From the NCBI GenBank assembly GCA_020853255.1, contig JADYZI010000145.1:1-10764 (forward strand): a stretch of DNA of 10,764 nucleotides, read 5' to 3'. Origin of the DNA: Acidobacteriota bacterium. Lineage in GTDB: Bacteria > Acidobacteriota > Blastocatellia > Pyrinomonadales > Pyrinomonadaceae. Under the pieces are notes generated by a model that had not been told where the DNA came from, searched no databases, and saw only the letters and a list, made by a program, of their open reading frames with translations. The translations under genes and the position numbers were made by a program. Below, piece by piece: positions 8,254 through 10,452 of this stretch; the stretch's first letter is position 1; every line of letters begins with the position of its first letter.

Positions 8254-10452
8254 CTAATGATGCTCTTTCGCCCCATCGGGTAAATTCCCGTGATAGATCT
8301 CGCTTCCGCTTTTCACAAACTCTTTTGCTTTTTCGCTCATTCCGACGGCGAGAGCCTTTTCGGCTTCGATGTTTTGTTCGGCTGCGAATTCACGGACTTC
8401 CTGCGTGATTTTCATTGAGCAGAAATGCGGTCCGCACATTGAGCAAAAGTGGGCGAGTTTGGCACCTTCTGCAGGGAGGGTTTCGTCGTGAAATTCTTTT
8501 GCCTTTTCGGGGTCTAGCCCGAGGTTGAATTGGTCTTCCCAGCGGAACTCGAAGCGCGCCTTTGAGAGGGCGTTGTCGCGGTATTGAGCGCCGGGATGAC
8601 CTTTGGCGAGGTCGGCGGCGTGGGCGGCGAGTTTGTAGGTGATAACGCCTTCTTTGACATCTTGTTTGTTCGGCAAACCCAAGTGTTCTTTTGGCGTAAC
8701 ATAGCAGAGCATCGCACAGCCGAACCAGCCGATCATCGCCGCTCCGATGCCCGAAGTGATGTGGTCGTAGCCCGGTGCGATGTCGGTGGTCAGCGGTCCG
8801 AGCGTGTAAAAAGGTGCTTCGCCGCAGACCGCGAGTTGTTTGTCCATATTCTCTTTGATGAGGTGCATCGGGACGTGACCGGGACCTTCGATCATCGTTT
8901 GGCAATCCATTTCCCAAGCGATCTTTGTCAGTTCGCCGAGCGTTTCGAGTTCGGCAAATTGGGCTTCGTCGTTGGCATCGGCAATCGAGCCGGGACGCAA
9001 TCCGTCGCCTAAGCTGAACGAAACATCGTAAGTCCTCATAATCTCGCAAATCTCTCGAAAGCGTGTGTAGAGAAAACTTTCTTCGTGATGGGCGAGACAC
9101 CATTTCGCCATGATCGAGCCGCCGCGTGAGACGATTCCGGTCGTGCGTTTCGCCGTCAGCGGAATGTATGGCAGACGAACTCCGGCGTGAATCGTGAAAT
9201 AATCAACGCCTTGTTCGGCTTGCTCGATCAAAGTGTCGCGGTAAATTTCCCACGTCAAATCTTCCGCCTTGCCGTTCACCTTTTCGAGTGCCTGATAGAT
9301 CGGCACCGTACCGATCGGCACGGGCGAATTCCGCAAAATCCATTCCCGCGTGGCGTGGATATTCTTGCCCGTCGAAAGATCCATCACCGTATCGGCGCCC
9401 CAAAGCGTTGACCAACGCATCTTTTCAACCTCTTCTTCGATTGACGAGGCAATCGCGCTGTTGCCGATATTCGCGTTGATCTTTACGAGGAAGTTGCGGC
9501 CGATAATCATCGGCTCGCTTTCGGGATGATTGATGTTCGCCGGAATTATCGCGCGGCCGCGTGCAACTTCATCGCGCACAAATTCGGGCGTAACGAACTT
9601 CGGCACAGACGCTCCGAAAGATTCGCCCGTATGCTGATGAAAAAGCGAACTGCGGTCATTGATTTGCTCGTCGGCAAGAGTTTCAAACGCAATCTGCCGC
9701 CCAAGATTTTCCCGAATCGCAACGAATTCCATCTCCGGCGTGATAATGCCTTGGCGGGCGTAGTGTATTTGGGTGACGCACTGGCCGGGTTTTGCACGGA
9801 GCGGAGCTCGCTTGAGACCCGGGAATTCCTCCAGTTCGCCGTTGCGTGAAGCGGAGCCATTACTGACGTGCGGGCTACTGACACGTGGGCTGCTGACACG
9901 GGCGAATTCTTCGGCACCTTTTGTGAGATATCCGTTGTCCTGCGGGACGACCTCGCGGCCTTCGTATTCTTCGACGTCGCCGCGTGAGATTATCCAATCG
10001 CGCCGATGTGCGGGCAGGCCGTCGCGGACATTATGGCGATGATCGGGATCGGTCCACGGGCCGCTGGTGTCGTAAACGCGGACGGGCGGGTTTTCTTCGA
10101 TCGTGCCGTCCATTGCCTTGCTCGGTGTGAGCGATATCTCGCGAAATGGAACGCGTAACTGGAAGTTCTTTGATTCGGCAGATGAGCCCTTACTTACGTG
10201 CGGGCTACTGACACTGTGCGTGCTGCTGGCATAGATCTTCTGCGAAGCAGGCAACTTGGTTTCATCACTCGTGCGTTCCGCGTTAAGCCCTAGCTCACGC
10301 GCGGGCTTCTGCAATGAATGGCCTTTTGGCGAGGCTGGTGGGCGGATATTGTCGATTGTGATCTCTATCTCGCCCTTACTTCGTGCGGGCTTCCGCACCC
10401 CGGCGGCAGCTTCTTCTTTGACGTTTGATGTTTGTTTCTTTACTTGTGGCAT
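8254..10452 (-). CDS. thiC: Phosphomethylpyrimidine synthase ThiC with repeat-bearing N-terminal extension
   Basis: Radical SAM enzyme that rearranges aminoimidazole ribotide (AIR) into HMP phosphate, the pyrimidine half of thiamin; cytosolic, homodimeric. The core from about residue 97 on is highly conserved: [142 protein letters not shown]. The atypical C-terminal cluster motif C-x2-C-x4-C is Cys670, Cys673 and Cys678 ([11 protein letters not shown]). At 732 residues it is about 100 longer than usual ThiC (around 630 in Escherichia coli). The surplus lies in residues 1-98 and in an insert at about 185-210, both carrying copies of a repeat. The start is fixed by AGGGAG seven bases upstream, which belongs to the TPP aptamer. 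No other thi gene is nearby. Confidence 0.97.
9856..9897. repeat. Intragenic repeat copy A in thiC with 15-base tandem unit
   Basis: On the plus strand GCCATTACTGAC (9856-9867) is followed by GTGCGGGCTACTGAC (9868-9882) and the related ACGTGGGCTGCTGAC (9883-9897). In ThiC it encodes [14 protein letters not shown], residues 186-199, inserted in a loop between YLTKGAEEF and the conserved [16 protein letters not shown]. Confidence 0.85.
10186..10227. repeat. Intragenic repeat copy B in thiC
   Basis: GCCCTTACTTAC (10186-10197) is followed by GTGCGGGCTACTGAC (10198-10212), the same 15-mer as in copy A, then a diverged unit ACTGTGCGTGCTGCT. In ThiC it encodes [14 protein letters not shown], residues 76-89. 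It separates the conserved LPASQKIYA from [12 protein letters not shown], which are only a few residues apart in other ThiC proteins. Confidence 0.85.
10287..10311. repeat. Intragenic repeat copy D in thiC, diverged
   Basis: GCCCTAGCTCACGCGCGGGC followed by TTCTG. It matches the core of copies A and B with several changes and is read in a different frame, giving QKPARELG (residues 48-55) in ThiC. Confidence 0.7.
10372..10392. repeat. Intragenic repeat copy C in thiC, one base shorter
   Basis: GCCCTTACTTCGTGCGGGCT: identical to copy B over the core except for one missing A. It encodes KPARSKG (residues 21-27) in ThiC. Confidence 0.75.

Follow-up and report, generated by a model that had tools for sequence, protein, structure and literature searches.

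The window, that is the whole stretch of 10,764 nucleotides analysed here, contains the thiC gene and a TPP riboswitch (Table 1). Two Pfam domains are matched by the product, ThiC-associated (aa 93-161, 82.9 bits) and ThiC_Rad_SAM (aa 227-685, 611.5 bits). Because the riboswitch reaches the thiC start codon, translation starts upstream of copies C and D, and both of these belong to the translated region. Elsewhere in the window, a 429-aa ORF at 1100-2389 has no Pfam match at E <= 0.001. Four REP elements are present, all of them within thiC and in frame. They represent three related families, F1 (copies A and B), F2 (copy C) and F3 (copy D), with the consensus sequences GTGTCMGTAGCCCGCACGTNAGTAAGGGCTC, TGCRGAAGCCCGCGCGTNAGCAAGGGC and TGCRGAAGCCCGCACGAAGTAAGGGC, respectively.

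Table 1. Coordinates of thiC, its leader and the REP elements in the window
Feature	Position	Strand	Description
thiC (phosphomethylpyrimidine synthase)	8254..10452	-	732 aa; identified by Pfam; carries all four elements
TPP riboswitch	10444..10558	-	Rfam RF00059, 66.6 bits; overlaps thiC start codon
Copy A	9854-9884	-	F1, 1 substitution against consensus; between the two ThiC Pfam domains
Truncated F1 unit GTGTCAGCAGCCCAC	9885-9899	-	15 nt; adjoins copy A on its 5' side; gives a period-5 peptide
Copy B	10184-10214	-	F1, consensus matched exactly; between KIY and VPFREI
Copy C	10287-10313	-	F2, 1 substitution; N-terminal extension
Copy D	10372-10397	-	F3, consensus matched exactly; reads RKPARSKG; N-terminal extension

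The first-pass annotation of this DNA had described four related repeats in thiC with one shared core and no further copies in the intergenic regions of the window. The four repeats were confirmed, three of them by a core search and all by a family scan; they belong to three families rather than one, and the single core fits copies A, B and C. With up to three mismatches allowed, the core GCCCTTACTNACGYGCGGGCT has three matches in the window, at 9856, 10186 and 10287, a number reached in none of 200 shuffles. The segment near 10373 does not fit this core because it is an exact, undamaged copy of the related family F3 (ending in GCACGAAGTAAGGGC); its description as a core with a 2-base deletion was dropped after F3 had been recognised. 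When the whole window was scanned with the consensi of seven families, up to 8 substitutions being allowed, only the four elements in thiC were found, and the reversed patterns gave one match with 8 mismatches.

Truncated F1 units of 15-17 nt lie directly 5' of 5 among 39 full F1 copies in the fetched loci and 3' of none of the 39. Besides the one in the window, such units occur in L120, L045, L064, L080 and L104. Foot cleavage or slippage may have left them behind, and their 15-nt steps preserve the reading frame.

The translated repeats occupy aa 19-28, 48-57, 80-91 and 185-206 of ThiC and none lies within either Pfam domain. When ThiC is aligned with its counterpart from C. crescentus (3EPM), the alignment begins with a stretch at aa 97-176, which sites D, C and B precede, and site A falls between the end of that stretch (176) and the start of the next (208). 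Judged from domain limits and these gaps, the inserts are candidates for a surface position. Copy B does separate KIY from VPFREI, and copies C and D do lie in an N-terminal extension, both as first annotated; copy A, which had been placed immediately before a named ThiC motif, is located between the two Pfam domains instead. An AlphaFold2 model of ThiC, built from 40 close ThiC sequences, was discarded (mean pLDDT 34.8).

Folded as single-stranded DNA, F1, F2 and F4 form a stem with a small internal loop, a 2-bp inner stem and a 4-base loop (z -2.1, -1.5 and -3.2). The hairpin of copy B has an energy of -4.9 kcal/mol (z -2.1) and that of copy C -6.9 kcal/mol (z -1.5). F3 preferred a different fold and copy A folds weakly; overall, the energies beat those of shuffled sequences only modestly (z -2.1, -1.5, -1.5 and -3.2; copy A -0.35). 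Over the fetched loci, one inner-stem pair is A-T in 145 cases, G-C in 29 and C-C in 1, so that pairing is kept in 174 of 175, with the A-T share inflated in L001-L120 by the pattern used for fetching. By source, this pair is A-T in 144 and G-C in 15 cases in L001-L120, and A-T in 7, G-C in 14 and C-C in 1 elsewhere. A few mixed inner pairs occur in a set of 99 genomes, the exact matches being two A/C and one G/T. A foot of the type C[AG]GA was recognised by eye in the consensi of F2-F6, and CnGT in F1 and some other flanks; GTAG overlaps the start of the stem in F1 and is absent from the F2-F6 consensi.

The core is by no means confined to thiC. Of 99 genomes sampled in the family of G001, 43 contain it, with one match of the control over the whole set, and it occurs in at least 120 loci of genome contigs. 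Among the matches listed, the titles of 118 name Acidobacteria or Acidobacteriota (63), Pyrinomonadaceae (37), Chloracidobacterium (14) or Blastocatellia (4), and two say only "bacterium". Twelve genomes drawn from the listed loci, in which presence of the core was guaranteed by this choice, contain 51, 1, 37, 35, 5, 23, 28, 70, 41, 6, 17 and 12 copies, thus up to 70 per genome; the reversed control gave none. Inverted REP pairs were recognised by eye among the dispersed copies.

In relatives, REPs of these families accompany genes of transposases. A 175-aa Y1/HUH transposase has one REP copy about 45 bases upstream and an inverted copy downstream. The query transposase matches Pfam Y1_Tnp with 29.9 bits, above the cut-off of 23, and it scores 30.3 bits with the NCBIfam model NF047646 of REP-associated tyrosine transposases (RAYTs), short of the cut-off of 80; among sequences of solved structures only four weak matches were found (E 0.41-0.83). 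In the consensus of 49 aligned transposase ORFs, the motifs NHvH, LW and Yv.ngQ are apparent, L170 and L213 deviating at the Y motif, and the residue after the conserved LW is K, T or N in most. Inverted flanking repeats with at least 17/22 identical positions are present at 49 of 51 recognised transposase ORFs. For comparison with controls, 55 transposase loci were reduced to 46, four being dropped for want of a recognised ORF and five more for a short flank. At least 20/22 positions are identical in 39 of these 46 transposase genes, all from relatives, versus none of 600 random places, and at least 17/22 in 45 of 46 versus 18 of 600. The same 20/22 is reached by 4 of 8 scorable Y1_Tnp loci outside this group, so inverted flanks are not peculiar to the transposases described here.

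The sequence of the flanking REPs mostly follows the transposase clade, and F1, F2 and F3 are each found with a clade of their own. Transposases of the RDYIEFQDRS type have F1 flanks (L151, L211 and, on the single readable side, L163), those of the GFEVYEENP type F2 flanks (L168, L170, L223) and those of the D[DE]YG type F3 flanks (L158, L165, L166, L177), while the remaining clades pair with further REP families. Exceptions are L159 and L220, which are of the D[DE]YG type and carry other type-1 cores. Two elements of the window have counterparts among such flanks: copy C, including its TTAAC tail, is similar to the flanking REPs of the transposases in L168 and L223, and the core of copy D matches the flanking REPs of L158, L165, L166 and L177. 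G009, the nearest relative by ThiC, has F1 elements, but its matched transposase loci, four in number (L154, L164, L173, L179), all lack F1 flanks. Among the 99 genomes, 35 have both the core and a match to the query transposase (E <= 0.001), 8 the core only, 20 the transposase only and 36 neither, a co-occurrence with Fisher P = 5.8e-6, uncorrected for kinship. Thus this core is missing from 20 of 55 transposase-positive genomes, and a match to the query from 8 of 43 that are core-positive. The agent moving these REPs is probably the identified Y1 transposase.

Rickettsia palindromic elements, to which the repeats of thiC had been likened at first, are short palindromes translated in frame within many genes. 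The likeness holds as a functional analogy only: the elements studied here are RAYT-associated REPs, with CnGA or CnGT feet and with families that flank transposases, whereas those of Rickettsia are described, in the available text of Di Nocera et al. 2013 (PMC3733652), as CGTC-tagged and without associated transposase genes. What was found in relatives is characteristic of REP/RAYT systems, namely a RAYT between inverted REPs, dispersed copies and, for F1, F2 and F4, an imperfect hairpin with a tetranucleotide foot on its 5' side. Inverted REP pairs and RAYT genes with REP flanks are shared with the REPIN/RAYT system of Pseudomonas fluorescens, where REP pairs form inverted repeats and, by the available text (PMC3116915), the commonest 16-mers, with 1,067 occurrences, overlap genes in only 14 of these.

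REPs located inside protein genes, read as protein and associated with RAYTs are already known from other phyla, as GTAG-tagged REPs (PMC3733652), and with them the kind of phenomenon reported here. The same study describes different REPs at about one site of Xanthomonas recB, and its available text mentions Acidobacteria once, for TIR-flanked transposases. The elements of the present work are likewise intragenic, translated and RAYT-associated. In contrast to the GTAG foot of those REPs, they carry CnGA or CnGT, and here several families occur at common protein sites over many genomes. As judged by eye from their motifs, the transposases appear to be close to TnpA-Y1 class 3 (Quentin et al. 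2018, PMC6006769), for which an NHVH-type HUH motif, a Y....Q motif, flanking hairpins with CnGA foot, high copy number and Acidobacteria among the hosts were described. The likeness covers a length of about 175-178 aa, NHVH, Y....Q, flanking hairpins and high copy number. The published W motif of class 3 is W[TA], whereas K, T or N follows the W in most of the present sequences; the class 3 foot is CnGA, whereas F1 and some other flanks have CnGT. That study, in its available text, counts 24 proteins in class 3, which it calls rare and still to be studied further, and does not use the word "intragenic"; in the single family sampled here, relatives of the query transposase occur in 55 of 99 genomes. 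In the open-licence PMC literature searched, we found no earlier report of acidobacterial intragenic REPs, nor of intragenic class-3-like REPs, of multi-family use of common protein sites or of the frame bias described below, which are therefore presented as new here.

The same sites of ThiC are empty, filled or alternatively filled in relatives. Eighty-six thiC ORFs were compared, namely that of the window, that of L005 and those at loci from sampled genomes. The seven consensi have 17 matches in 12 of them, 14 with at most 2 changes, and reversed patterns have none. The catalytic part is free of REP matches in all 86 ORFs and 74 contain no REP match at all. Site A measures 15 aa in 66 of 76 ORFs, the other 10 of the 86 having no match to the site-A anchors; it extends to 30 aa in the window and L181 and, with an F2 insert, to 23 aa in L204. 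The inserted residues are consequently not an ancestral part of ThiC. Families and frames vary from genome to genome: F1 is read as SSPHVSKG, F2 as KPAREQG, F3 as KPARSKG, F5 as PPAVAGG and F4 in two frames, VRTGSDSDR and SEPGAVATG; the insert of L275 is N-terminal. Among the nearest 120 ThiC proteins, 68 have REP-like peptides in the N-terminal part and one elsewhere, the reversed peptides used as control being matched in none, and site A is long in 78 and short in 40 of the 118 measured. Two of these proteins, P0001 and P0002, are nearly alike in their N and B segments, while their site A holds F1 and F2, respectively. As relatives' genes carry different repeats at common sites, parts of ThiC appear to have been repeatedly invaded by small mobile DNA.

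Not every occurrence is a separate event, since the scar SASRNGE, common to several ThiC relatives, indicates that the F1 insert of site A is partly old and goes back to a single earlier F1 insertion, inherited and decaying; many occurrences are accordingly due to inheritance. The inserts of L182 and L183 look decayed or shortened, and copy A as well as several relatives show 15-nt partial repeats. On a ThiC tree, presence of any REP requires 10 changes, and the sum per site and family is 14 (decayed L182 taken as F1); these counts are indicative, as the tree was built quickly, leaves 25 of its 76 inner branches open and excludes 7 of 86 rows as too short.

Beyond thiC, most REP copies lie outside long ORFs: exact cores fall well inside ORFs of at least 150 aa in 25 of 144 cases, versus 1594 of 2400 random positions (66%). 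This count requires an open frame and is hence blind to gene-breaking inserts. The 25 intragenic cores belong to 24 ORFs, one being thiC of L005, and Pfam domains were found in 18 of 20 scanned (L013, L063 and L087 left out), among them Mur ligase, PurD, DNA polymerase III alpha, three M1 peptidases, aldehyde dehydrogenase and two glycosidases. In an M1 peptidase gene of L104 and L105, an apparent whole inverted REP pair is translated at the same place (KPAREQGRN...ALTDVRASA or ALTNVRASA).

In 20 orthologues of an NAD-dependent epimerase, one loop is either 29 aa long (10 orthologues) or filled (the other 10). In five of the latter (L290, L293, L297, L298, L301) it contains an antisense-read core of F1-F3 type and in four (L294, L296, L308, L309) a second unit, GTCAGAACCCGAAGCGNTAGCGAGGGGTTC; L295 has GGLGGGSSAG, which was left unassigned. 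The second unit folds like a REP and was found outside the epimerase gene only once, at transposase locus L160 (control 0), and is therefore termed REP-like. In L309, a 27-nt REP-like unit stands twice in tandem (PLANASGSDMPLANASGSDM). Inserts lengthen the epimerase gene by a net +27, +24 or +30 nt, among other values, which disagree with the lengths of the elements themselves; no clean junction or target duplication could be defined.

Intragenic elements, 43 of 203 by simple ORF calls, are not read evenly in all frames. Relative to a free choice among the open frames of each element, SPHVSKG is favoured (21 seen, 10.1 expected, P about 1e-4), and PLLTCG (2 seen, 10.1 expected, P 0.0013) and the third antisense frame (0 seen, 5.4 expected, P 0.0021) are avoided. 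ALTxVRA (13 seen, 10.1 expected) does not deviate significantly; PAREQG was seen 5 times against 2.3 expected (P 0.065) and ARTxVR 2 times against 5.0 (P 0.09). Such a bias is consistent with selection against inserts that are hydrophobic or contain cysteine.

We consider it highly probable that these REPs are spread by RAYTs and survive within genes only where they stand in frame within tolerant segments. RAYT-type Y1 transposases would each recognise the hairpin and foot of the REPs beside their own gene and spread these, by insertion that is presumably untargeted otherwise, and most copies would settle outside long ORFs. Copies within genes would last only if the frame is kept, the peptide is tolerable (mostly hydrophilic) and the segment is non-conserved. 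In ThiC, the tolerant segments would be three: the N-terminal extension, the part preceding VPFREI and the one lying between the two domains. After entry, REPs may be inherited, decay, grow by 15-nt partial repeats (5 residues) or be replaced. The original suggestion of a short self-spreading element that enters coding DNA in frame is thereby supported, the mobility being deduced from the distribution. Neither of the two outcomes that the first-pass annotation had named as refuting it was obtained, the core being dispersed among the sampled genomes and the residues not ancestral.

The added residues would, on the reading just given, be tolerated rather than useful. It is improbable that they have been exapted for stability, dimer contact or partner binding and that the recurrence of sites reflects selection for insertion. 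Several REP families do recur at common ThiC sites, REP-like units recur in one epimerase loop, and the long form of site A prevails among the nearest ThiC relatives. Recurrence is, however, predicted by tolerance alone as well; inserts look decayed or shortened (L182, L183) or are swapped for unrelated peptides, and the great majority of thiC ORFs across the family do without any REP match. We regard as very improbable a regulatory role of the elements as RNA hairpins that act in the thiC mRNA together with the TPP riboswitch and yield the peptides as a by-product. Such a role would suit the riboswitch reaching the start codon, with copies C and D within the next 60 codons, the formation of hairpins, and the ability of REPs elsewhere to stabilise mRNA or end transcription, mentioned in the available text of PMC6006769. 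Against it, the elements also reside inside unrelated genes in both orientations, many relatives of thiC have a riboswitch leader peptide in frame and no elements, and one hydrophilic frame is favoured, which an RNA role does not need. Ancestral low-complexity or slippage-derived ThiC segments, arising independently of any mobile element, are hardly credible: the 15-nt partial repeats would agree with them, but the dispersal of the same DNA families, the transposases that they flank, the prevailing 15-aa form of site A and the zero matches of the control contradict them.

REPs owe their name to an extragenic position, yet in the genes described here they are translated, in a core vitamin enzyme as well as in other ORFs. 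The empty, filled and alternatively filled sites of ThiC and the epimerase are natural replicates, informative on where mobile elements may enter proteins, and the many REP-transposase pairs make class-3-like transposases accessible. A more far-reaching and rather doubtful possibility is that the class-3-like RAYT/REP system of these acidobacteria is a standing source of in-frame peptide insertions, through which several independent families go on sampling the same permissive segments in core enzymes, with some of the inserts becoming adopted. If this were true, a seemingly extragenic repeat system would be a real engine of protein loop evolution.
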